Below, one piece after another: positions 1 through 11,077 of a stretch of DNA of 64,000 nucleotides. This DNA is from an uncultured Carboxylicivirga sp. Lineage in GTDB: Bacteria; Bacteroidota; Bacteroidia; Bacteroidales; Marinilabiliaceae. Position 1 is the stretch's first letter; every line of letters starts with the position of its first letter. The stretch spans positions 186,001 through 250,000 of the forward strand of contig CANNEA010000006.1 in NCBI GenBank assembly GCA_947503525.1, in the 5' to 3' direction. A program made the position numbers and the translations under genes. Below the pieces are notes generated by a model. The model was given only the letters and a program-made list of their open reading frames with translations, was not told where the DNA came from and did not search any database.

Positions 1-80
1 ATTCCCATTCCTATTCCCCGCTTGCAACCTGTAACCAAGGCAGTTTTGCCTTCGAGGCTAAATGTATTTAAAATGCTCAT
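1..80 (-). CDS. SDR-family oxidoreductase, N-terminal fragment (KduD / gluconate 5-dehydrogenase-like)
   Basis: The reverse complement of bases 80 to 1 gives an ATG followed by 26 uninterrupted codons that run off the window edge. The peptide begins MSILNTFSLEGKTALVTG and continues with CKRGIG, so it shows the first beta strand and the TGxxxGxG dinucleotide-binding glycine motif of classical short-chain dehydrogenases. The leader 'FSLEGKxALVTGC' resembles KduD (2-dehydro-3-deoxy-gluconate 5-dehydrogenase) and gluconate 5-dehydrogenase proteins. That substrate assignment is an inference, because the catalytic YxxxK region lies outside the window. It is 72 bp downstream of the zinc-type dehydrogenase on the same strand, so it probably belongs to the same sugar-oxidation operon. 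Confidence 0.8.
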   Translation of the reverse strand, partial: MSILNTFSLEGKTALVTGCKRGIGMG

Positions 81-152
81 AGTTTTCTTTTTTTTGTGCA
101 TTGAGCACAATGCAAAGTATTTTTAATGCTTCTATAGTACCAATGGCCAAAG

Positions 153-1166
153 TTACTGACAATCTACCAAATATTTCATGCCATTTGGATTGGTATCAAT
201 CTGTTCAAATAGTTGCTGGATATTATCCAGAGGCTCAACAGCGGTGATTAATGATTCGAAAGGAAGTTCATTTTTGGTAATCAGATTTATTGATTCCTCG
301 TAATCTTCAGCTTCATAAACTCGTGCACCAATTAATTCCAATTCTTTCCAGAAGAACTTAAATAAGTCTACAGGTTTCTTTTCACCATGGATGGCTACCA
401 TCACAATTCGGCCACGTATACCAGCAACCTCTGTCATTACATCCAAGGAAGGTTGAACACCAGCTACTTCAAATACCACATCAGCCAATCCGCCATTGGT
501 TTTTTCTTCTACGTATTGGACTAGATCTGTTTTAACAGGATTAACTACTTCAAAACCCATTTCTTCGGCCATCTTAATGCGAATGTCATTTACTTCTGAG
601 ATAATCACATTAGCGCCTTTGTTTTTAGCCACCATGGCTACCAATAAACCAATAGGACCGCCACCAAGTACAACTGCCGTTTCGCCTTTTACCAATCTAC
701 CACGACGTACATCATGACAAGCTACTGAAAGTGGCTCAATCAAGGCAGCCAATTTTAAGTCGGTGGCTGTATTTAATTTGTGCAATGTAAAGGCCGGTAC
801 ATTCCAATATTGTTGCATGGCACCCGGACTATCAATGCCAATGAACTTAAGTTTCTTGGCAATGTGCGAATGTCCTTTGTCTGATGCTGCTTCAGCCCTG
901 TTGTCCAGCGGACGAACCGTTACTTTTTCACCAATTTCATAGCCACTTACGCCTTCGCCAATGGCATCAACCACACCCGACATCTCATGACCAATAATTT
1001 GCGGAATGCTTACGCGTTGATCCATCATGCCATGATAGATGTGAACGTCAGTCCCACATACGCCACAATAGGCTACTTTAATTCTTACTTCACCTTTGGC
1101 AGGAGCTTCCATTTCTTTGTCAACTACCGAGAAGCTTTTATTTCCTTCGTATAATGTTGCTTTCAT
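153..1166 (-). CDS. Zinc-type medium-chain alcohol/sugar dehydrogenase lacking the structural-zinc lobe cysteines
   Basis: This 337-residue protein is a medium-chain dehydrogenase of the sorbitol/threonine dehydrogenase type, predicted to oxidise a secondary alcohol of a sugar or sugar acid with NAD(P)+. The catalytic zinc ligands are visible: C37 in CGTD, the H60-E61 pair in GHE, and E144 in EPLS. The Rossmann motif GGGPIG lies at about 168-173. Most relatives carry four cysteines at about residues 90-110 that bind a structural zinc. Here that lobe (residues 85-112) has no cysteine at all. It is preceded on the same strand by the Gfo/Idh/MocA gene after a 418-bp repeat-rich gap, so it may be co-transcribed or have its own promoter. 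The substrate cannot be told from sequence. Confidence 0.88.
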   Translation of the reverse strand: MKATLYEGNKSFSVVDKEMEAPAKGEVRIKVAYCGVCGTDVHIYHGMMDQRVSIPQIIGHEMSGVVDAIGEGVSGYEIGEKVTVRPLDNRAEAASDKGHSHIAKKLKFIGIDSPGAMQQYWNVPAFTLHKLNTATDLKLAALIEPLSVACHDVRRGRLVKGETAVVLGGGPIGLLVAMVAKNKGANVIISEVNDIRIKMAEEMGFEVVNPVKTDLVQYVEEKTNGGLADVVFEVAGVQPSLDVMTEVAGIRGRIVMVAIHGEKKPVDLFKFFWKELELIGARVYEAEDYEESINLITKNELPFESLITAVEPLDNIQQLFEQIDTNPNGMKYLVDCQ

Positions 1167-1287
1167 TGTTTGTATTTTTATAAACTTTGGTTCTGATTAT
1201 CCCTTTGTATTTTTTATATTTTAAACTCAATGTGGAAAATCTGGGCAAATGTTTCAGTAATCCATATGTCCTCAAGCCGGACGGGCT

Positions 1288-1451
1288 TTTACTTTCTACC
1301 TGCAGTCGCAGAAAGTAAACAAAGAGGACCGTCGCTGTATTTAAATAGCTAAAAATTTAATTTACAAACTAAACCAAAAGAACTCGCTCCACTCAAACAG
1401 CTTTTGCTTTTAACGTTTGTAAATCAAATTTCATTAACGCTTTTAAATACA
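1288..1451. repeat. Intergenic composite hairpin element (possible MITE-like interspersed repeat)
   Basis: This element fills most of the 418-bp gap 1167-1584, in which I see no gene. A perfect 10-bp inverted repeat, TTTACTTTCT / AGAAAGTAAA (1288-1297 and 1310-1319), is followed by a larger imperfect one with outer arms TGTATTTAAA (1336-1345) and TTTAAATACA (1442-1451). Matching inner blocks are ATTTACAAAC / GTTTGTAAAT and CAAAAG / CTTTTG, so about 45 nt per side could fold into one long stem. A further stretch at about 1530-1570 contains the phrase TTCGTGAAATTCGTGGT, which I recall as recurrent in intergenic DNA of this phylum. Its repeated nature is inferred from that recollection. Confidence 0.5.
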
Positions 1452-1584
1452 AGGCGATTATGAAAACTACAACAAAACCCACTCTATTTCATTTTGAGAC
1501 AGTCACTTTTTTTGCCCACTATTTTTCATAATTAATAAATAGATTCGTGTCAATTCGTGAAATTCGTGGTAAATGAATCGAATA

Positions 1585-2658
1585 TTAAATTGAATCGTAT
1601 TCTGGCTTAACGCCACCGGCATCACTTGAGGCATAAGCGGCTTCAACCACCAACATGGTTTTCATCACATCATCAATAGAGGTGTCCAACACATCTGACT
1701 CGCCATTGGCATAACAGATTAATGAGGACATAGTGCCAATAAAGGCATCAGGGAACCAGGATCCTTCCAAGGTTTTACTTTCCCATTTGGGCTCTTTGCC
1801 TTCTTCAAGTATACAATATTCAAAAGCATCAGGTACGCCGTCAGGGTAATTCATTAATAATCCCATTTTAGCGTAGATAGCGCCTTTGGTACCTTCCCAC
1901 TTTACGTAGCTTTCCTGATGATTTCTTCCAAAAATATGATCATGATTGGTGCTTACCAAGGCCCGAAGCGAATCGCCATAGTCCATGATAACATTAGTAC
2001 GTGTTGACGACATTTCTTTGGCTGGATGACGCAAGGTTTTGGCCATAATGGTTTCCGGATTGCCAAGGAAAGAACGGACCAAATCAATATGATGAATACT
2101 GTGTTGCTGGATTTCCAAACGAGGATGATACATTACGTTAGGAAAAAGTTCCCAGGGCATATGTACACTTACCTTAACTTCCATATCGTAGAGTTCCCCA
2201 ATAGCACCTTTATTAATTAAATCGCGTGCTGCCATAATGTATGGTGCAAAGCGTAACTGGCAATTAACGGCTGCAATTAGCTTTTTTCGCTTACATACCT
2301 CAACTATTTCTTTGGTTTGTTCAAAGTAATCACCCAGTGGTTTTTGAATTAAAACCGGTGCTCCATCAGGCAGTTTCTCCAAGGTAGCCACAAATTGATT
2401 GGGCATAAGCGTTAAATCAAATACAGCATTCTCGGGTGCTTGTGCAATAGCATCATCGATATCGTCAAATACACGAGGAATATCAAATTTTTCAGCTATT
2501 TTTTCAGCACGTGCCTTGGTGCGGTTTGTGATGCCATATACCTCAAAACCGGCTTTGCGGTAGGCCGGCATATGGGCATCGTTTACAATACCTCCGGCTC
2601 CAATAATTATAATTGGTCGTTTTGTTTTTGGTAGGGTATATTGATAATTTATATCCAT
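1585..2658 (-). CDS. Gfo/Idh/MocA-family oxidoreductase
   Basis: This 357-residue protein is an NAD(P)-dependent oxidoreductase of the glucose-fructose/inositol dehydrogenase family. The N-terminal Rossmann motif is GAGGIVNDAH (about 21-30). The family's EKPxG motif appears as QKPLG (about 125-129) and contributes the conserved lysine near the nicotinamide. The C-terminal half is the alpha/beta substrate-binding domain, with a conserved-looking HSIHHIDLVR segment. It has no signal peptide, so it acts in the cytoplasm. It starts 10 bp after the preceding gene in a tightly packed minus-strand operon with a RhaT-like transporter and CoA-transferases, which suggests oxidation or epimerisation of an imported sugar or polyol. 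The exact substrate is unknown. Confidence 0.88.
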   Translation of the reverse strand: MDINYQYTLPKTKRPIIIIGAGGIVNDAHMPAYRKAGFEVYGITNRTKARAEKIAEKFDIPRVFDDIDDAIAQAPENAVFDLTLMPNQFVATLEKLPDGAPVLIQKPLGDYFEQTKEIVEVCKRKKLIAAVNCQLRFAPYIMAARDLINKGAIGELYDMEVKVSVHMPWELFPNVMYHPRLEIQQHSIHHIDLVRSFLGNPETIMAKTLRHPAKEMSSTRTNVIMDYGDSLRALVSTNHDHIFGRNHQESYVKWEGTKGAIYAKMGLLMNYPDGVPDAFEYCILEEGKEPKWESKTLEGSWFPDAFIGTMSSLICYANGESDVLDTSIDDVMKTMLVVEAAYASSDAGGVKPEYDSI

Positions 2659-2668
2659 TATTGTTGAT

Positions 2669-3892
2669 TTATAGGTTTTCTACTTTTGTTTGTGCTTCGT
2701 TTAATATGTCTTCAATACTATCGTTGGAATTTATTACGCGTAATACAAGAGCATCAATAATATCGGCTACCTGCGACCAATTGCTCATGCGGGGCAATGA
2801 GTGGGTATCCTTATGTAATTCTTCCAGTTTGTGATAATAAGGAATTATTTGATTGACTTCGTCGTCGTGCCATGTTGACTTTCTGCAGCCAATCCCACCT
2901 TCGAGGGTAAGGAGTTTGTCATTTTCCTGACTAGCAGCAAAGCGTATAAAATCATAAGCCAGCTGTTGATTTTGGCTTCCGGAACCAATCACATACATCC
3001 AGTAGGCATTTAAAGAAACACCATGACCATTAGGTCCTGCCGGTACATTGGCAATGTCAACCTTGCCTTTAACTTTTGAATCGGCATTGACCTCGCAATT
3101 CGATGCAAAGCCAAACCAGTTCACCATCATGGCCAATTCGCCATTAGCAAACGCCAGGCCTGCCTTTACCGAGTCGAACTCATGTGACTTTGGGTGCAGA
3201 ATATTTTCGTTTTGAAGTGCCTGACGATAAAAGGTCATGCCTTCCAGAGCTGTATTGGAGTTAAGGATAACCCTATTCTCCTTATCCATCAATTCGCCAC
3301 CTCGCGTCCACAGTTGCAGACAAAAGTCAAATACCGTATTGTGTCCATCCGGATAAGCCGCAAAGCTTGTACCGTAAAGGTTTTCATCTGGGCGATTAAA
3401 AAACTCTGCCACCTGAAGCAGATCATCCCATGTTTCAGGAAGTTTTAATTCCTTTCCATATTTGTCCTTAAAAGCTTCCTTTTCTTTATTGGATTCAATA
3501 AGGTCTTTACGATAGACCATGCACTCCGGACCATTATGAAAGGGTAGTCCGACAAAACGATCATCGAATTGCTGCATCCCCAATAGAGAACTAGACCAGC
3601 CATTGGGAAACAATTCTGGGGCGTCCTTCTCAATGAGAGGCTTCAGATTTGTTATCGCACCGGAACTATTGGCTTCAGTTATCCAATCGGTATTCATCAA
3701 GGCCACGTCCCAATTGCCATTTTTTAATCCATCCTCTTTTAATATGCTATCATATAAAGGATGAAGATCCATGGCAATGGCTTCCAGCTCAAGTTCACAA
3801 TTGTATTGTTGGCAGAATTTAGTCCATATTTTTTCAATGGCTGTTTCAAAAGGACCAAACTTCCTTACTGCTATCCTAAATTTCTTCGCCAT
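2669..3892 (-). CDS. Solute-binding-protein-like (family 1) protein without signal peptide
   Basis: This 407-residue protein has the fold signature of sugar-type periplasmic binding proteins. It has an N-terminal alpha/beta lobe starting directly at residue 4 (KFRIAVRKFGPFE), a GLPFHNGPECMVYRKDL hinge-like region at about 123, a WTRGGELMD segment near 200, and a C-terminal YDFIRFAASQ region typical of family 1 binding proteins. Known relatives are exported, but this one lacks any hydrophobic leader or lipobox. The start is fixed by the neighbouring CoA-transferase, whose stop lies 5 bp upstream, and no leader is encoded upstream in frame. No ABC permease or ATPase is present. A cytosolic ligand-binding or enzymatic role in this operon is an inference. 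Confidence 0.82.
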   Translation of the reverse strand: MAKKFRIAVRKFGPFETAIEKIWTKFCQQYNCELELEAIAMDLHPLYDSILKEDGLKNGNWDVALMNTDWITEANSSGAITNLKPLIEKDAPELFPNGWSSSLLGMQQFDDRFVGLPFHNGPECMVYRKDLIESNKEKEAFKDKYGKELKLPETWDDLLQVAEFFNRPDENLYGTSFAAYPDGHNTVFDFCLQLWTRGGELMDKENRVILNSNTALEGMTFYRQALQNENILHPKSHEFDSVKAGLAFANGELAMMVNWFGFASNCEVNADSKVKGKVDIANVPAGPNGHGVSLNAYWMYVIGSGSQNQQLAYDFIRFAASQENDKLLTLEGGIGCRKSTWHDDEVNQIIPYYHKLEELHKDTHSLPRMSNWSQVADIIDALVLRVINSNDSIEDILNEAQTKVENL

Positions 3893-3897
3893 TACAC

Positions 3898-5040
3898 CTA
3901 TTTTATCAGTTCGTTGAAAATGGAGCTGGTGTGTTCACCAATATTAGGTGATCCAATGGATGAAGTCAAGCGTTGGCCATCAATTTTAATGGGGCATCGG
4001 GTGGTTTCATATTCAAATCCATCACCCATCTTAACCTTTTGAATCATCTCCAAAGCTTTAAATCCATCATGATCAAACAGACGCTCCCAGTTCATTACAT
4101 CGGCACACCAAATATCGGCGGGCTCAAGAATTGAAAGCCATTTTTCAGTTGTACCGGTTTTCAAATGATCCGCTAATATCTGCTTTATCTCATCACGCTG
4201 TGTAAACCATGAGTCCGGCTCGGGATATGCCTTTAGGACTTCGCAAGCTAATAAATCACCTAATACAGGAATGGCGCCCATGGCTAAAGCAAAGTGTCCA
4301 TTTTCTGTTTCGTAAACACCATATGGTGCGCCAAGGTAGGCATGCGCATTATTACTTTCTGTACGTTGTATTGCTTCACCACCATCATGATAATAGGTAG
4401 TAATGGTCTCAAACTGAAAATCCAATATGGATTCCAGCATACTGATTGATACTTTGGAGCCTTCTCCCGTTTTTGATCGTTTGATCAATGATGCCAATAT
4501 CCCTTGTGCCAAATGCGATCCGGCTAAGATATCGACTATGGCTATCCCCATTGGAACCGGTCCTTTATTGGCATTTCCGCTTAACCAGGTTAAGCCAGAT
4601 AATGATTGTAGTAATAAGTCCTGACCCGGTTTTTCAGCCCATGGACCTTCAGAACCATAACCAGAAATGTCACCATAAACAATGGATGGGTTAATGGCTT
4701 TGATTGTTTCGTAATCCAAACCTAAGCGTTCGATCACGCCCGGACGGAAGTTGTGAACCAGTACATCGGCTTTGGCGATTAGTTTTAATACTTTGGCTTT
4801 ATCATCTTCTTGCTTAAGATCAGCCTGAAAGCTTTCCTTATTACGGTTGATGGCTCTGAATACAGATGATTCGCCATTGAGCATCACATTTGATACGTAT
4901 AACTGACGACAGATATCTCCTGTAACTGGTCGTTCAACTTTAATAACCCTGGCGCCTAAATCAGCCAGTCGAAGGGTTGCTGAAGGAGCCGAAAGAAATT
5001 GGCTCAGGTCAACAACTAGTATATCCTTAAGTGGTAGCAT
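3898..5040 (-). CDS. CaiB/BaiF family (class III) CoA-transferase, copy 1
   Basis: This 380-residue protein is a class III CoA-transferase, which moves CoA between carboxylic acids through an enzyme-bound aspartyl-CoA intermediate. The N-terminal motif [17 protein letters not shown] (about 22-38) binds CoA. It is followed by NRNKES, HNFRPGV and ISGYG. The expected catalytic aspartate is D170 in the IVDILAGSH segment, aligning with D169 of formyl-CoA transferase. The length fits the family (about 380-430). It is paralogous to the gene 12 bp upstream and sits between binding-protein homologues. The pair may form a heterodimer or act on two different acids. The acyl substrate is unknown, and the context suggests an acid derived from a deoxy sugar. 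Confidence 0.9.
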
Positions 5041-5051
5041 ATTGATTTGTT

Positions 5052-6200
5052 TTAAGCGTTGAGGTTAAATTCTTTAGTAATGGCTTCGGTATCTTGACCA
5101 ACACGAGGCGCAGGTTTTGAGGCAAACAATCTTTCGTCATTCAAACGGATAGGACAACGTGTGGTGTGAATTTCTTCACCAGTATCCAGTTGAAGTTTCT
5201 GATCCATTTGTAAGGTTAAATAGCCATCGTGTTCCAACAGTTTCTTATAGTCAAATACATCGGAGCACCATATATCCTCAGGTTCAAGCAGGCTCAACCA
5301 TTCTTTGGTGGTTTTCAGTGCTAACTGACCTCGAAGGATATCCATTATTTCATCACGCTTTGTAAACCAAGATTCACTATCGGTATAAGCTTCCAGCTCT
5401 TTATTACCTGTTAGTTTGGCAATGCGAAGCAAGGATCCCATGGCCAATGAAATGTAGCCATCTTTGGTAGGATAAACACCATATGGAGCGCTAAGGTAGG
5501 CGTGAGCGGTCCCTTCTTTGGCCCTTTTGGGTAATTTGTTGCCATCATTTAAGTAAGTAGTAATAACTTCAAACTGAAAGTCCAGCATGGATTCCAATAG
5601 ACTCACCTCAACCAAGGCGCCCTTATTGCTTTTGCTTCGGCGCAATAATGCCGCCAATATGCCATGCACCAAGTGGCTACCTGTTACAATGTCGGCTACT
5701 GCCAGTCCAAATGGAGTTGGTCCATCGCCTTCGTCACCGCTAAGATTAGCCAAGCCAGACATGCATTGAACCAATAAGTCCTGACCCGGTTTGGCTGCCC
5801 ATGGCCCTTCGGTTCCATAGCCGGTAACACTTGCATAAACAATTTGATCATTAATGGTTTTAACCGTATCATGATCCAGACCAATTTTTTCCATAACACC
5901 CGGACGGAAGTTATGGGTCATAACATCAGCCTTGGCAATCAACGCTTTTACCGCTGCCAGATCATCCGCATCCTTAAGGTTGGCGGCGTACGATTCTTTA
6001 TTGCGATTCACCGTGTGAAATACCAAACTACTGCCATCTACCTTTAGATTTTTAATGGCAATTTGTCGTCCACCTTCACCATGAATCGGACGTTCTATTT
6101 TAATCACTCTGGCTCCTAAATCGGCAAGCCGTAATCCGGCTGATGGCCCTGCCATAAACTGACAGAACTCAAGTACCAATATCCCCTCTAGTGGCTTCAT
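5052..6200 (-). CDS. CaiB/BaiF family (class III) CoA-transferase, copy 2
   Basis: This 382-residue paralogue of the downstream CoA-transferase shares the same block order: [15 protein letters not shown] (about 24-38), [25 protein letters not shown] and [10 protein letters not shown]. Its catalytic aspartate is predicted at D170 in [10 protein letters not shown]. The two copies are clearly homologous along their whole length, so a local duplication is likely. Family members transfer CoA between short-chain acids such as formate/oxalate, carnitine/crotonobetaine or mesaconate/citramalate. Which pair is used here cannot be read from the sequence. It lies 4 bp from the upstream gene, consistent with translational coupling. 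Confidence 0.9.
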
Positions 6201-6204
6201 ATGA

Positions 6205-7359
6205 TTATTTTTCTAAAAGTGACTTTTTATATAGTTCATTTAATTCACCAAGTAAGGCTTTGGCGTCTCCACCGTTCATCATGTATTCGCGAATTGGAGC
6301 ACCCGCCCTGTCCTGGAAATACATATGTCCGTGATAGCGTGGGCGCAGGAATGAACGATCTAAGGCTGGTAATGTGTCAGCAAAGAAATCTAAACATTGT
6401 GAGTTAACTCTGTGATCGGTCCATGCTTTTCTGTGTCCAGGTTGCCCGCCATTATCAAAGAATAGCCCTTTTTGAGTATCCAGGGCACCTACATATTCAG
6501 CATATTTAGCAGCAATATCCATGTGCTTGCATTGCGATGAAATGGCTAACCCCGTTCCACCAAGTGTTGAGATTAGTTTCTGCCCATCAATAGCCACCAT
6601 GTCATGGAATTTCAGCATACGACGCGCATAGCCTTCACGCGAATAATTGGTATAACCGTAGGCAAATGGGGTATATAAGTAATCATCACCCAAGGTCATG
6701 GCTTCGTATACTTTAATCGGATTCCACTCGTAGCTTTCTTTACGAATGTTTTTGCCTAATTCGCGTAACATCTCCAAGGCTGCAATTCCTGTCTTCTCCG
6801 ATACTACAAAGTCAGGAGTTGTACATACATCTTCACCCAATGTAGAACACACCATGTAGAAACTCATTAAAGTATCCTGGGGAATACCCGGGATGGCTAC
6901 CTTACCGGTTTTTGATAAGTCAATCAAATCCTGAAAGGTGGTTGGTAAGCTTAAGTTTTCTTTCTCCAATAAGTCAGGACGACTAGCTGCAACAGGTGTT
7001 GCTGCATCAATGGCCAAAGCCCATTGGTGATCATTAAATGAGTAGCTCTCATGCGATTTACCCACTGAGTTTTCAGCAAGATCCTGCATTAAAGCTTTAT
7101 CCAGAATAGTATCCAAGGGCATTATTACCTTAGTACGTGCCGCAAACCCAGCCCATGGGTGGTCAATAATCAAGAAATCGTAGCGTTGGGCCAGTTGGTC
7201 AATTGGCTCATCAGCAAAGGCTTGTAATGATCGTTTTTCCCATGTGATCTGAACGCCTGGGTTAAGTTCTTCAAAACGTTGAGCCAAGGCTACAATTGAT
7301 GTAAATCCACGACTGTGGTTCCAGGTGATGCCCTTAAGTTGTATGTTTTGATTATCCAT
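6205..7359 (-). CDS. Second solute-binding-protein-like protein without signal peptide
   Basis: This 384-residue protein has a recognisable family 1 solute-binding-protein layout. The first strand/helix begins at residue 9 ([12 protein letters not shown]) and is followed by [16 protein letters not shown] at about 27-42, the hinge region [11 protein letters not shown] at about 60, and the C-terminal [16 protein letters not shown] block. As in the other binding-protein homologue of this operon, the N-terminus is polar (MDNQNIQ) and there is no signal peptide or lipobox. The two proteins are only distantly alike, so this is not a simple recent duplication. With no ABC transporter genes nearby, a cytoplasmic role, for example holding a pathway intermediate for the adjacent CoA-transferases, is a hypothesis only. 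Confidence 0.8.
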
Positions 7360-7442
7360 ATGATGTATTTTTATTTTCTTATATGCAATCTATTGAGGTT
7401 TGGTAGGTCCTCCTTTTAACTTTATACTTTACTGATTTAGTC

Positions 7443-8516
7443 CTAATGTCCAATGGCTTCCGCTCCCAAACTACTTCCATAAGTCATGGTTACAAAAGAT
7501 ATGATGAGTACGGCCAAGGCTAAAAGCAAAGTGCGATAAGTTCGTTTGCTTACTTGCGACCATTCTTTCATCAGAATACCTATTAAGTAGCTGAAGAAGA
7601 TCAGCATTGACATGTGAATGACCCAGCTGGCAAATTTGAATGCGCCCATTCGCACGTGGGCAATGTTATAAAAGAAAAACTGGCCATACCAAAGCGCTCC
7701 ACTTAGTATAGACATTACAAAGTTTAAAGTAATAAGCTTTATTCCCATTCCTTTAACATCCACTATTTCTTTTAAGGTTTTTTGTTTTATGCCAATGGTA
7801 ACAAACCAAAACAGGTTGGTAATAAATGCGCCTATTGTTGAAAGCATTAAGTTGGCATTGCCTTGAAAATCGCCTGCCCCATGTTTTTCTGCAATTTCAG
7901 CTATTGGAGCACCAACTTCAAGCGATATCCCAAATACAGCTGACAATACGCCGGCAATAATGGTTAAGGTAAAGCCTTTTTTCATATTAAACGAAGGACG
8001 TTCACCACCTTGGTCACCAAGGGCTTTAAGATCCTTTTCTTTGCGATAGCCTGAAACGCCACAAAGGCTTATTCCTATTAAAGAGAGAAACATGCCAAAG
8101 AAAATGACACCGCCACCAGGTTCATTAAATTTCTGTATCAATTCGCCATGCATAATTAAAGGCACTATGGTTCCTAATATGGCTGAAATGCCAATTGAAA
8201 TGGTATAGGTTAAGGAATAACCAATGTGCTTGATGGCATATCCAAAACTCATTCCTCCAAATCCATAAATCGCACCCAGAAGTAAAGCATTAATAATTAC
8301 TGTACCTGGAGATTCAGCAAAAACGGTCCATATATTAGGTACGGTGATGTATCCGATTACTAATGGGAAGATTAACCATGCAAAGGTAGCTTGTACTAGC
8401 CAGTATGAGTTCCACGACCATTGTTTTACTTTCTGAAAAGGAACATAACATGTAGAAGCTGAAATACCACCAATGGCATGATACAGCGTTCCGACAATTG
8501 GATTTGATTGAGGCAT
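7443..8516 (-). CDS. RhaT-family sugar:proton symporter
   Basis: This 357-residue, very hydrophobic protein has about ten predicted transmembrane helices. It resembles the L-rhamnose/proton symporter family: the N-terminal GTLYHAIGGISASTCYVPF, KVKQWSWNSYWL and FGAIYGFGGMSFGYAIKHIG segments correspond to conserved RhaT blocks, and E. coli RhaT is similar in length (344). It should sit in the inner membrane and import a sugar, probably a 6-deoxyhexose or related monosaccharide, with H+ or Na+. It is the first gene of the minus-strand catabolic operon and the only clear transporter in it, so it probably defines the substrate entry step. The upstream 250 bp carry two palindromes that could be operators. 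Confidence 0.85.
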   Translation of the reverse strand: MPQSNPIVGTLYHAIGGISASTCYVPFQKVKQWSWNSYWLVQATFAWLIFPLVIGYITVPNIWTVFAESPGTVIINALLLGAIYGFGGMSFGYAIKHIGYSLTYTISIGISAILGTIVPLIMHGELIQKFNEPGGGVIFFGMFLSLIGISLCGVSGYRKEKDLKALGDQGGERPSFNMKKGFTLTIIAGVLSAVFGISLEVGAPIAEIAEKHGAGDFQGNANLMLSTIGAFITNLFWFVTIGIKQKTLKEIVDVKGMGIKLITLNFVMSILSGALWYGQFFFYNIAHVRMGAFKFASWVIHMSMLIFFSYLIGILMKEWSQVSKRTYRTLLLALAVLIISFVTMTYGSSLGAEAIGH

Positions 8517-8768: not shown

Positions 8769-9992
8769 TTATTCGTTGGCCTTAATGCCAATTTTTTTGA
8801 GGTCTTCCCAATACTTAGGGTATGATTTGGTAACCACCATAGGATCTTTAATCATCATATTAAACCCTGATAGTTGACAAGGGGCAAAGGCCATCGCCAT
8901 CCGATGATCTTTGTAGGTGTCTATTTCTATTGGCTTTGCTACTTCTGATTTGTTGCCATCCCAGATGAGATTATCGACATCGTTAGTGCTTAACTTAAAA
9001 CCCATTTTACCCAATTCGTTGATGAGTGCTGAAATACGATCAGTCTCTTTGATTTTAAGGGTTTGTAGTCCTGTGAAATGGAATGGAACATTTAACATGC
9101 AACATGCAACAGCCACTGTTTGTGCTAAATCAGGTTCATTAATAAAGTCGTAATTTAACTTACTTACTTTCTCTCCTGAGTTTATTAAAGTCACACCCTT
9201 TTGCGAGAATTTAGTATTAACACCTAGTTTTTTGAAAATGTGCTGTATGTTTGAATCGCCCTGAAGGCTTATTTTCTTCAGGCCTTTTAAGGTAATTTTC
9301 AGTTCTGGATTTAAGGCTGCAATCTCGTACCAATAACTGGCTGCACTCCAGTCTGATTCAACAGTTGTGCTTTTCGCCTGGTAGTTAGCTTCAGGTATAA
9401 TAATGGAATTGCCTTTCCAAATCCCTTGAACACCAAACTCCTTCATTAAAGCGAGAGTCATGTTCAAATAAGGCTTTGATATAATGTCTCCTGTAAGTTT
9501 TAGCTCAAGCCCATTTTCGATGCTTGGAGCAATCATCATCAAGGCTGAAATATATTGGCTGCTTACATTGCCTGGTAATTCCAATTCACCACCTTTAAGC
9601 GCACTTCCAAATATACGTAGTGGAGGATAGCCTTCTTTTTCGATATATTCAATCTTAGCGCCAAGTTGATTTAATGCATCCACCAAGGTTTTTATGGGGC
9701 GCTCCTTCATTCTTGAAGATCCGGTTATCACCCATTCGCCAACAATCTTTGATAGAAAGGCCGTTAAAAAGCGCATGGATGTTCCAGCTGCTCCAACATC
9801 AAAGGTGTTGCTGTTGGCATTTAATACTTTAAGCATCACCTTGGTGTCATCGCTATCCGAAAGGTTTTTAATTTCAAATGGACTATAGCTTAGGGCATTT
9901 AATAATAATAAGCGATTACTAATACTTTTTGATGAAGGTAATTGAATGTTTACCTCACCAGCTTTTTTATCCAATGACAATGAATATTGCAT
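8769..9992 (-). CDS. aroA: 3-phosphoshikimate 1-carboxyvinyltransferase (EPSP synthase)
   Basis: This 407-residue enzyme joins phosphoenolpyruvate to shikimate 3-phosphate, the sixth step of the shikimate pathway to aromatic amino acids. Visible family motifs in order are LPSSKSISNR (about 18-27), the GTSMRFLTA loop (about 70), SSQYISALMM, ESDWSAASYW, KETDRISAL, YKDHRMAMAFA and VVTKSYP near the C-terminus. In the PEP-site loop many relatives have GTAMR, while here the residue is Ser (GTSMR). It is a cytosolic protein. It lies 14 bp downstream of aroB, forming a two-gene shikimate operon closed by a strong terminator. Confidence 0.95.
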   Translation of the reverse strand: MQYSLSLDKKAGEVNIQLPSSKSISNRLLLLNALSYSPFEIKNLSDSDDTKVMLKVLNANSNTFDVGAAGTSMRFLTAFLSKIVGEWVITGSSRMKERPIKTLVDALNQLGAKIEYIEKEGYPPLRIFGSALKGGELELPGNVSSQYISALMMIAPSIENGLELKLTGDIISKPYLNMTLALMKEFGVQGIWKGNSIIIPEANYQAKSTTVESDWSAASYWYEIAALNPELKITLKGLKKISLQGDSNIQHIFKKLGVNTKFSQKGVTLINSGEKVSKLNYDFINEPDLAQTVAVACCMLNVPFHFTGLQTLKIKETDRISALINELGKMGFKLSTNDVDNLIWDGNKSEVAKPIEIDTYKDHRMAMAFAPCQLSGFNMMIKDPMVVTKSYPKYWEDLKKIGIKANE

Positions 9993-10006
9993 GCTGCTCC
10001 TGGTGT

Positions 10007-11077
10007 TTATTTGAAATTGTTATAAAAGTATAAAGCATCGAACACTTCTTCTTTAGTGGCCTGACAGTTAATCTGAATCTTACCTATTCCTTCAAGTAGG
10101 GTAAAGTTGATTTTGTTAGCTTCGTTCTTTTTGTCATGAGTCATTAGCTTATAGAGCTCTTCGAACTTGTCTTTGCCAAATTCAAAATGTCCATAAATGG
10201 CTTCCAGATATTCGGCAATTTCCATTACTTTTGGCATTGGAAAGCCAAGTCGAATATGCGAGAGATACAATTCGCATATCATACCAAAGGCTACCGCATA
10301 ACCATGCAATATAGCTCTATCTTCATACATGGCCATACTCTCAAAGGCATGACCAAAAGTATGGCCAAAGTTTAGGGCTTTGCGAATATGATTTTCTAGC
10401 GGGTCATTCTGTACAAAGTGATCTTTTATGCGAATGGAATCAGCTACCAAATCTTTAAGCTCATCCAAGTTAGGATTAGCAATATCAAAGACCTTTAATT
10501 GTTCCCATCTCTCAGCAGAGAAGATAAAGGCATGTTTGATCATCTCAGCAAAGCCTGAAATGATATTAGGTTGATCTAAAGTTTCTAAAAAAGTAGTGTC
10601 AATTAATACAGCTGTAGCTTGATTAAAAACGCCAATTTCATTTTTTAGTCCACCAAAATTAATTCCGGTTTTTCCTCCAATTGAAGCATCTACTTGAGCC
10701 AGAAGAGTAGTGGGGATGTTGATAAACTGAATGCCCCGTTTAAAAGTGGAGGCTGCAAACCCACCCAAATCACATGGCATACCCCCACCTAATGTAATCA
10801 AAAGCGATTTACGATCAGCACCGCCATTGCTTAACATTTGCCAGACTTTCTCAATGGTCGATAGTTTTTTATTGTGATCGCCATCAGGTATCACAACGGT
10901 ACGCTCCGGACTTAATCCAGCAGTGTCTTCTATCTTACTAAAGCAATGCTTGTATGATTCTTTGTCAGATAATAGAAAAACTTTTCCATTAGGGAAATTT
11001 CCTATCAGATGTTCGATGTCTTTGGTAAGATCATCAACAATAAAAACATTTGACTCTTTTGATAGTAACGGAAACAT
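10007..11077 (-). CDS. aroB: 3-dehydroquinate synthase
   Basis: This 356-residue, NAD+- and metal-dependent enzyme converts DAHP to 3-dehydroquinate in the shikimate pathway. Diagnostic segments are VIPDGDHNKKLSTIEKVW (about 82-99), ITLGGGMPCDLGGFAASTFKRG (split here; about 114-135), IPTTLLAQVDASIGGKTGINF (split; about 140-160), GFAEMIKHAFI and ALNFGHTFGHAFE, which supplies the zinc-binding histidines. Its length is typical. It is first in the aroB-aroA pair and has a good TAnnTTTG box 24 nt upstream of its start codon. Confidence 0.95.
   Translation of the reverse strand: MFPLLSKESNVFIVDDLTKDIEHLIGNFPNGKVFLLSDKESYKHCFSKIEDTAGLSPERTVVIPDGDHNKKLSTIEKVWQMLSNGGADRKSLLITLGGGMPCDLGGFAASTFKRGIQFINIPTTLLAQVDASIGGKTGINFGGLKNEIGVFNQATAVLIDTTFLETLDQPNIISGFAEMIKHAFIFSAERWEQLKVFDIANPNLDELKDLVADSIRIKDHFVQNDPLENHIRKALNFGHTFGHAFESMAMYEDRAILHGYAVAFGMICELYLSHIRLGFPMPKVMEIAEYLEAIYGHFEFGKDKFEELYKLMTHDKKNEANKINFTLLEGIGKIQINCQATKEEVFDALYFYNNFK

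Follow-up and report, generated by a model that had tools for sequence, protein, structure and literature searches.

A gene set of seaweed-feeding and soil bacteria that appears to degrade fucose-like sugars via coenzyme A

Results

The window, meaning the whole stretch of 64,000 nucleotides that was analysed, opens with a minus-strand operon that runs on beyond the window's first position (Table 1). Its strand and the core gaps of 4, 11, 5 and 10 bp given in the original prediction were borne out by the coordinates; RhaT and SBP1 are separated by 83 bp, the Gfo/Idh/MocA and zinc dehydrogenase (ADH) genes by 418 bp. The gene content as first read (RhaT, two CaiB/BaiF paralogues, two solute-binding-protein homologues, Gfo/Idh/MocA and zinc dehydrogenase) also stands, each gene call in the window exceeding its Pfam cut-off. 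RhaT passed that of PF06379, with all NCBIfam RhaT models under their cut-offs (best 297.9 of 468). No NCBIfam equivalog reached its cut-off for Gfo/Idh/MocA, and tdh, the best model for the zinc dehydrogenase, gave 191.3 of the 458 needed. The zinc dehydrogenase and the SDR, first read as following the core, belong with it: they follow Gfo on the same strand in 13/13 loci having all three, with Gfo-ADH gaps ranging from 2 to 418 bp. The claim that no dehydratase is present is correct inside the window and fails for the whole operon, which includes a MaoC hydratase gene outside the window. Beyond MaoC lie a divergent IclR regulator and then a 7-bladed lactonase, likewise outside the window.

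Table 1. Genes of the operon, their positions and the profile matches that support them
Feature	Position	Strand	Support
RhaT-family sugar/H+ symporter, 357 aa, probable importer	7443..8516	minus	PF06379 184.5 bits, cut-off 27
SBP1, leaderless solute-binding-protein homologue, 384 aa, module marker gene	6205..7359	minus	PF01547 (SBP_bac_1) 47.2 bits
CaiB-A, first class III CoA-transferase paralogue, 382 aa	5052..6200	minus	PF02515 (CoA_transf_3) 321.6 bits
CaiB-B, second class III CoA-transferase paralogue, 380 aa	3898..5040	minus	PF02515 325.4 bits
SBP2, second leaderless solute-binding-protein homologue, 407 aa	2669..3892	minus	PF01547 97.8 bits
Gfo/Idh/MocA oxidoreductase, 357 aa	1585..2658	minus	PF01408 (GFO_IDH_MocA) 47.3 bits, PF22725 31.1 bits
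Zinc-type medium-chain dehydrogenase (ADH), 337 aa	153..1166	minus	PF00107 89.3 bits, PF08240 (ADH_N) 85.6 bits
KduD-like SDR, 5' end only in window	1..80 (ATG at 80); whole gene L004:13310-14080	minus	kduD 333.9 bits, cut-off 338.85
MaoC hydratase, outside window, after SDR	C6:184356-184799 = L004:12356-12799	same strand as operon	PF01575 83.3 bits

Related loci were collected via SBP1 only (n = 82). Of 247 genomes from the window's phylum 14 contain relatives, as do 16 of 349 from a second phylum. CaiB is present in 81 of these loci, as members of the CaiB cluster in 79 and as a CaiB-CaiB fusion in two more, and 72/82 keep SBP1-CaiB-CaiB in this order on one strand with median gaps of 4.5 and 2 bp. 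In the remaining locus, from Flavobacterium sp. UMI-01 (L051), a crotonase and an aldehyde dehydrogenase gene come after SBP1 and CaiB is missing within 10 kb, so the tie is not absolute. Other genes recur less often: a RhaT of the same cluster in 30/82 loci including the window, the Gfo/Idh/MocA cluster in 40/82 and the zinc dehydrogenase cluster in 14. The window's own genome has three PF02515 genes, each at most one gene away from an SBP1 homologue, and module parts at two further loci, C4 and C2. The neighbourhood comparison proposed beforehand thus found the arrangement conserved within Bacteroidota and Pseudomonadota, which supports, at the level of gene order, the predicted functional unit tying a deoxy-sugar to CoA-thioester chemistry. 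We found no paper describing this module.

A MaoC hydratase or crotonase occurs in 71/82 SBP1 loci; 7 of the 11 loci with neither are shorter stretches. Two layouts prevail, SBP2-Gfo-(ADH-SDR)-MaoC and one with a crotonase and an AldA-like aldehyde dehydrogenase, the latter scoring 488.9 bits against a cut-off of 500 for a model that we take to be AldA. The MaoC of the operon carries GDFFPHH, and the pattern G-D/E-x-x-P-(x)-H, with the Asp and His residues expected of a hydratase-2, is found in 27/32 MaoC cluster members. The crotonase Glu positions are kept in 35/45 and 43/45.

CaiB-A and CaiB-B share 53% identity, and PF02515 (cut-off 23.3 bits) spans model positions 1-366 of 366 in both. 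Each has Asp170 in the catalytic region of the family, aligned to an Asp of SUGCT; in formyl-CoA transferase the catalytic Asp is Asp169. The Asp column is invariant (36/36 alignment rows), and a pattern scan found the residue in 144/157. Eight of the 13 misses were inspected: four have a longer start that shifts the numbering, three have the Asp beside other letters, and the last, the C4 paralogue, keeps it in different surroundings. None of the named CoA-transferase equivalogs of NCBIfam (SUGCT, mesaconate, oxalate, formyl-CoA, carnitine) was passed, the highest score being 227.8 of 750. In a tree that took in 104 of 182 rows, CaiB-A and CaiB-B form separate clades (support 99/99 and 99/96), each across two phyla; the paralogues are co-inherited. 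In two Hymenobacter they are naturally fused into a single ORF of 793/794 aa. The CaiB family also holds racemases.

Both binding proteins had been called leaderless, and a hydrophobicity scan of N-termini agrees: those of SBP1 and SBP2 in the window are not hydrophobic, nor is any among 82 SBP1 homologues (0/82) and 40 SBP2 cluster members (0/40), and secreted GH29 (10/10) and GH2 (13/13) neighbours passed as controls. As each ORF was taken from the first ATG, GTG or TTG after a stop, no in-frame start further 5' could supply a leader. A hydrophobic N-terminus is equally absent from SBP1 in six named plasmid loci; in those of Roseibium, Martelella and Pararhizobium, a nearby ABC receptor has one and SBP1 does not. 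The predicted lack of an ABC permease in the window was upheld by tblastn with four CUT1-type and one ribose-type permease queries from related loci (E ≤ 1e-4), which also found none at the C2 locus of the same genome (L152) or in 81/82 SBP1 loci. The sole positive locus, in Vibrio ulleungensis (L100), has its permease 3 to 5 kb away, encoded on the opposite strand; an ABC-ATPase query matched in 5/82 loci. SBP1 is confidently predicted to be a complete two-lobe sugar-SBP fold (SBP_bac_1/8; AF2 model, pLDDT 93.2, pTM 0.90). The model resembles the sugar ABC receptors TMBP 1eu8, SmoF 7yzs and MalE3 6dtq (Z 37.0-37.8, 362-373 residues), with Z 37.8 and rmsd 2.6 over 373 residues to the trehalose/maltose-binding protein 1eu8; unlike these receptors, SBP1 lacks leader and permease and is genetically linked to CaiB. 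Across loci SBP1, not SBP2, is the constant CaiB partner. SBP2 has MalE3 6dtq as its best PDB sequence match (E 4.7e-25), and relatives of it act as receptors for true ABC importers elsewhere.

The context, with alpha-L-fucosidase, rhamnosidase and annotated fuconate dehydratase genes, points to L-fucose/L-rhamnose-type sugars. On Persicobacter pPP8 the entire operon adjoins an alpha-L-fucosidase and a sulfatase, and the C2 locus reads alpha-L-fucosidase - MaoC - SBP2-like. Loci of S. meliloti, Roseibium, Martelella and Pararhizobium have an annotated L-fuconate dehydratase, L-rhamnose mutarotase and FAH-family hydrolase alongside (in Roseibium, no model for fuconolactonase, rhamnonate-pathway hydrolase or mutarotase reached its NCBIfam cut-off). 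The genes annotated in the window operon and its flank include no recognised fuconate dehydratase or FAH/KDF hydrolase. The same genome also encodes a fucose isomerase (C1:672237), a point against the reading favoured below. Glycosidases near SBP1 include GH29 in 8/82 loci, GH106 in 7/82 and GH78 in 6/82. GH29 occurs in 14/14 genomes with SBP1 versus 65/233 without (p 5e-8, a statistic that ignores relatedness). However, this association is confounded because the control family GH16 is also found in all SBP1 genomes (14/14 versus 133/233 others, p 0.001, likewise ignoring relatedness).

Discussion

In many seaweed-feeding and soil bacteria, this gene set appears to degrade fucose-like sugars via coenzyme A. 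Tentatively, we read the operon as encoding CoA-thioester breakdown of a sugar acid in the cytosol, with L-fucose or a close 6-deoxyhexose as the most likely source of that acid and SBP1 presenting the substrate. We infer the reactions, the substrate and the roles of SBP1 and SBP2 as follows. The sugar would be imported by RhaT, or by an ABC importer in Alphaproteobacteria, and oxidised by Gfo/Idh/MocA and/or the zinc dehydrogenase and SDR, the lactonase opening the lactone. The CaiB/BaiF paralogues, as a putative heteromer, would then transfer CoA to the sugar acid, and MaoC (the crotonase in the second layout) would eliminate or shift the beta-hydroxyl of the thioester. The CoA of the product could be exchanged onto the next sugar acid, as with CaiB and CaiD on carnitine. 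Where the layout has a crotonase, the thioester may subsequently be cleaved and the freed aldehyde oxidised by the AldA-like dehydrogenase. Although sugar-binding proteins of this kind normally act outside the cell, SBP1 would be a cytosolic protein and no transport receptor, binding the sugar or sugar acid and handing it to CaiB; SBP2 may likewise serve Gfo.

Carnitine CaiB/CaiD is a class III CoA-transferase with a crotonase. As in that system, a class III CoA-transferase and an enoyl-CoA hydratase are clustered here (81/82 and 71/82 loci), and by analogy the chemistry would allow a beta-hydroxy acid to be dehydrated while CoA is recycled. Unlike it, the module has two CaiB paralogues, leaderless SBP partner(s), sugar dehydrogenases and a sugar importer, and the L-carnitine CoA-transferase model stays far under its cut-off (77.4 of 413 bits). 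Two adjoining paralogues are also seen in the heteromeric class III CoA-transferases SmtAB and benzylsuccinate CoA-transferase (9fn0), from which the module differs by its sugar operon, its SBP partner and the natural fusion in Hymenobacter. The ferulate-type system combines a hydratase-lyase with an aldehyde dehydrogenase; the second layout similarly has a crotonase adjoining an aldehyde dehydrogenase, but the module uses CoA-transferases rather than a CoA ligase and lies in a sugar context.

A rather unlikely alternative, though one with a real chance, is classical non-phosphorylative fucose/rhamnose breakdown (by fuconolactonase, fuconate dehydratase, KDF dehydrogenase and FAH hydrolase), in which CaiB would activate only a C3/C4 end product (lactate, glycolate or a pyruvate-derived acid) and MaoC would act downstream. 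Alphaproteobacterial loci place the module next to annotated genes of this pathway, and the AldA-like dehydrogenase of the second layout would fit. An annotated L-fuconate dehydratase is already present in those loci, which leaves no obvious need for another way to dehydrate the acid and counts against our main reading. However, the known pathway contains no CoA chemistry, a sugar-SBP fold as regular CaiB partner would be left unexplained and, to our knowledge, lactate and pyruvate require no dedicated CoA-transferase pair.

Alternatively, and with little probability, the substrate could be a 3-linked aldobionic acid made from an imported disaccharide at its reducing end; SBPs would bind the disaccharide acid, CaiB would form its thioester, and MaoC or crotonase would expel the 3-O-glycosyl group by CoA-activated beta-elimination. 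3-linked units are known from agar, porphyran and fucoidan, many of the nearest solved folds hold di- or oligosaccharides by their structure titles, and the alphaproteobacterial stretches show sugar ABC importers and no annotated exo-glycosidase in gene tables that are incomplete (S. meliloti has one GH25). Yet RhaT-family proteins are monosaccharide-type symporters, glycosidases are present in many Bacteroidota loci, and we know of no precedent for such cleavage of a glycosidic bond.

Highly improbable is an AMACR-like racemase or epimerase function of CaiB on sugar-acid CoA esters: its PDB relatives include AMACR chains and a benzylsuccinate CoA-transferase subunit (9fn0), but the best are transferases, led by SUGCT (E 3.5e-53) and followed by formyl-CoA transferases and others, and no acyl-CoA ligase was found among the annotated conserved clusters, which cover part of the neighbouring ORFs. 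Scarcely credible is that the SBPs are drifting leftovers or orphaned receptors of an ABC importer that has been lost, unconnected to a CaiB acting on an unrelated acid: leadered ABC receptors of proteobacterial loci are 26-31% identical to SBP2, fold and nearest PDB chains are those of ABC receptors and L051 retains SBP1 without CaiB, but about 100 invariant columns in an alignment of 41 SBP1 sequences, adjacency to CaiB in two phyla and a missing leader also where an ABC importer lies nearby are not expected of a decaying gene.

The enzymes classically known to dehydrate sugar acids belong to the enolase superfamily or are of the Fe-S or UxuA type. The CoA-thioester route that we favour would, if true, be a new entry to sugar breakdown, spread among alga-degrading Bacteroidota. 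More speculatively, and on balance improbably, an SBP fold was recruited to the cytosol as a CoA-transferase subunit, and an SBP1-CaiB(-CaiB)-hydratase complex would act in two phyla as a general CoA-dependent sugar-acid dehydratase/lyase, possibly expelling glycosyl groups that are 3-linked, with no need for a glycoside hydrolase. An enzyme-tied cytosolic SBP would, if true, alter the reading of some 'extracellular solute-binding protein' annotations. The sulfated methyl pentose polymers of algae are described as resisting degradation and as potentially forming a carbon sink (PMC8857213), so a further fucose/rhamnose route would bear on marine carbon turnover. Some other SBP1 loci lie among agarase-like, GH2 and mannosidase genes, and the substrate may therefore vary by layout.

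Conservation of the module across genomes

The operon at the start of the window is a real, conserved module in which known families form a new combination. Its core is the near-constant tie between SBP1, one of two leaderless solute-binding-protein homologues, and class III CoA-transferases of the CaiB type. If SBP1 proved to be an enzyme subunit, the module would be more than a new combination of known families. A search of titles and abstract beginnings found no description of it, and passages from PMC3454389, PMC11378808, PMC5613140, PMC8857213 and PMC5698469 do not mention it.

Relatives were sought with SBP1 as the sole query. This search of genome contigs gave 521 confirmed stretches, and the counts over 82 loci refer to the best 80 of these plus two loci of the genome holding the window, a sample biased to near relatives of the window SBP1. 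CaiB cluster members occur in 79/82 loci (157 genes in total). Two of the remaining loci, L094 and L096, carry both CaiBs in one fused ORF, which brings the count to 81/82. The one true exception is L051 (Flavobacterium sp. UMI-01): here CaiB is missing within 10 kb, and upstream of SBP1 lie genes for GH29, Gfo and MaoC. The direct order SBP1-CaiB-CaiB on one strand is kept in 72/82 loci, with median gaps of 4.5 and 2 bp.

Two layouts are equally frequent: layout A, with the second binding-protein homologue SBP2 and the Gfo/Idh/MocA enzyme (Gfo), and layout B, with crotonase and aldehyde dehydrogenase, each account for 36/82 loci, while 3/82 have both and 7/82 neither. MaoC-type hydratases are found in 30/82 loci, crotonases in 45/82 and at least one of the two in 71/82; an IclR regulator is present in 52/82. 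Among whole genomes, an SBP1 homologue occurs in 14/247 of Bacteroidota, the phylum of the window, and in 16/349 of the phylum of Hirschia, where all 18 stretches around SBP1 contain a CaiB-family gene. Three of these 18 stretches (L136, L137, L139) have other genes between CaiB and SBP1, and in three more (L126, L127, L133) the SBP1 frame was found by genome search and missed by ORF picking.

The window operon and its continuation

The window (C6:186001-250000) is part of a 6.56-Mb draft genome. The original prediction had placed a six-gene core and a zinc-type dehydrogenase (ADH) here; ORF listing reproduced their positions and the core gaps exactly, and Pfam supports each of the gene families named. 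Past the window edge, in a stretch whose positions minus 14000 equal window positions (L004), a KduD-like SDR and a MaoC-type hydratase follow on the operon strand, and after these come an IclR regulator in divergent orientation and a 7-bladed lactonase. Gfo, ADH and SDR are consecutive on one strand in 13/13 loci having all three (12 related and the window), and we therefore regard ADH, SDR and MaoC as members of the operon unit. The Gfo-ADH gap ranges from 2 to 418 bp in these loci and is longest in the window. Two short partial copies of this longest gap lie at other places, one on C5 (70% over 136 bp) and one on C6 (92% over 38 bp), and it is possibly a repeat or insertion remnant within the operon. 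Promoter-like sites in the gap are no commoner than in shuffles, and these results speak neither for nor against a separate ADH-SDR-MaoC transcript in the window strain. Directly upstream of the operon, EPSP and DHQ synthase genes of the ordinary shikimate type lie on the same strand. A very long ORF further along the window resembles a secreted, SprB-like repeat protein of the gliding/T9SS kind.

Features of the window and of selected loci
Feature	Position	Strand	Content
Gfo-ADH gap	window 1175-1580		418 bp
Shikimate genes	window 8769-11077	-	EPSP synthase, DHQ synthase
Long ORF	window 13675-34830	+	7051 aa
C4 locus (L005)	C4:545000-564000		MFS sugar porter, cupin-like, RraA-like, SDR, SBP1 homologue, crotonase, CaiB, UxuA-like
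C2 locus (L152:10310-14784)	C2:798310-802784		alpha-L-fucosidase, 167-aa MaoC-domain protein, SBP2-like, URO-D-family protein
Exceptional locus	L051:10001-13582		SBP1, directly followed by crotonase and aldehyde dehydrogenase

Related loci in the same genome

Three PF02515 genes are present, two in the window and one on contig C4, each at most one gene from an SBP1 homologue. The C4 locus, whose SBP1 homologue has 34% identity to that of the window, represents a third layout of the module, made up of SBP1, CaiB, crotonase, SDR, RraA-like and UxuA-like genes. Its cupin-like gene was assigned by eye and is without a Pfam match. One GH38 and one GH92 gene adjoin the locus, and a second GH38 and GH92, again assigned by eye, flank the stretch. 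L137 has a comparable set that includes, by eye, ABC-type transporter genes, and L136 and L139 show related gene orders. At the C2 locus, the SBP2-like protein is leaderless (408 aa) and the cluster has a divergent AraC-type regulator. A PF13416 search of this genome listed three binding-protein places (C2, C4 and the window SBP2); this list is incomplete because the window SBP1 is missing from it despite 39.8 bits in hmmscan.

Two CaiB paralogues

CaiB-A and CaiB-B of the window share 53% identity, and both keep an Asp at position 170, in the catalytic region of the family. A tree built from 104 of 182 rows places first and second genes in distinct clades (99/99 and 99/96), each with members from Bacteroidota and Gammaproteobacteria; within these clades the pair thus stems from a single duplication and has been co-inherited. 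Outside both clades fall the C4 CaiB and 19 of the 21 rows from proteobacterial stretches, including the pairs of L134 and L138; the tree is midpoint-rooted and carries a long-branch warning for this part. The CaiB-CaiB pair is a single ORF in Hymenobacter armeniacus and H. negativus (793 and 794 aa), and MAFFT aligned all single CaiB rows to the C-terminal half of the fusion. The sequences fit a putative CaiB-A/CaiB-B heterodimer.

Fold and location of the binding proteins

The AF2 model of SBP1, built from 41 of 81 rows (window and 80 loci), has a mean pLDDT of 93.2 and a pTM of 0.90. It represents a complete sugar-receptor fold, with Z 37.8 to the trehalose/maltose-binding protein 1eu8 and Z 35.6 to 37.1 to the sulfoquinovosyl-binding SmoF. 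Among the 50 PDB matches listed, all are ABC-type binding proteins as far as titles show, and the absence of an enzyme from this listing carries no weight.

A Kyte-Doolittle scan of the N-terminus (12 residues, threshold 1.8) gave a hydrophobic N-terminus in 0/82 SBP1 (maximum 1.07) and 0/40 SBP2 cluster members (maximum 1.05) of the same loci. Neighbouring GH29 (10/10) and GH2 (13/13) proteins passed, and the scan over-calls if anything, as 17/40 Gfo proteins pass. The strongest argument for a predicted cytosolic SBP1 is the contrast within single loci of Roseibium, Martelella and Pararhizobium, where the ABC receptor scores 2.15 to 2.44 and SBP1 0.04 to 0.15. The Roseibium receptor has no Pfam family match at E 0.001, and its kinship with SBP2 is therefore judged from its position and from similar receptors in other genomes. 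One could regard the binding proteins as remnants of an ABC importer; this is improbable, since even alongside such an importer SBP1 has no leader and keeps its place beside CaiB.

Proposed chemistry

In carnitine dehydration, the class III CoA-transferase CaiB acts with the enoyl-CoA hydratase CaiD: once the acid carries CoA, its beta-hydroxyl is removed by the hydratase, and CoA then passes from the product to the next acid. The module likewise pairs a class III CoA-transferase with an enoyl-CoA hydratase, and a sugar acid might be dehydrated by CaiB and the hydratase in a similar way. As the beta-hydroxyl of aldonic acids is at C3, such chemistry would yield a 2-keto-3-deoxy acid. SBP1 may deliver the sugar acid to CaiB, a role suggested by the near-constant tie between the two. 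In layout B, a lyase step might then release an aldehyde, fitting the aldehyde dehydrogenase, which is AldA-like at 488.9 bits (cut-off 500).

The MaoC pattern G-D/E-x-x-P-(x)-H is present in 27/32 cluster members from the 82 loci, and by pattern the two crotonase Glu positions are kept in 35/45 and 43/45. The five MaoC proteins without the usual Asp/His pattern represent a second, 167-aa form between the two CaiB genes of L053, L059, L070, L079 and L082; L059 and L070 also have an ordinary MaoC further on. This form may be the partner subunit of a heteromeric hydratase.

Substrate context

Our best guess for the substrate of layout A is L-fucose or a near relative; for layout B it may be a different deoxy- or galacto-sugar. 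On the Persicobacter plasmid pPP8, an alpha-L-fucosidase and a sulfatase adjoin a complete window-type operon on the opposite strand. In Sinorhizobium meliloti, Roseibium, Martelella and Pararhizobium, genes for CaiB, SBP1, Gfo and MaoC or a "dehydratase" lie together with genes annotated as L-fuconate dehydratase, FAH hydrolase, SDR, L-rhamnose mutarotase, amidohydrolase and IclR, and with a sugar ABC importer. In S. meliloti, ~9 kb separate CaiB-SBP1 from the annotated L-fuconate dehydratase group. The Roseibium matches to models for 2,4-didehydro-3-deoxy-L-rhamnonate hydrolase (417 of 500), L-fuconolactonase (104 of 400) and the mutarotase (54.5 of 99.6) are all under cut-off.

GH29 lies within 10 kb of SBP1 in 8/82 loci, GH106 in 7/82, GH78 in 6/82 and a FucP-type permease in 8/82, the identity of each cluster being taken from one member (fucP 375.4 bits, cut-off 280.4). 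GH29 occurs in 14/14 genomes with SBP1 vs 65/233 without (p 5e-8). The GH16 control is likewise enriched (14/14 vs 133/233, p 0.001), and part of the GH29 enrichment therefore reflects polysaccharide degraders in general. Fucose isomerase gave no substrate signal, being over cut-off in 1/14 genomes with SBP1 (the one holding the window) vs 11/233 without (p 0.51). Some other loci contain agarase-like genes and GH2. In the first 6 kb of L066, L062, L053 and L079, P450, ferredoxin, ferredoxin-reductase, esterase and zinc dehydrogenase genes were recognized by eye upstream of the module, a neighbourhood that resembles porphyran demethylation genes.
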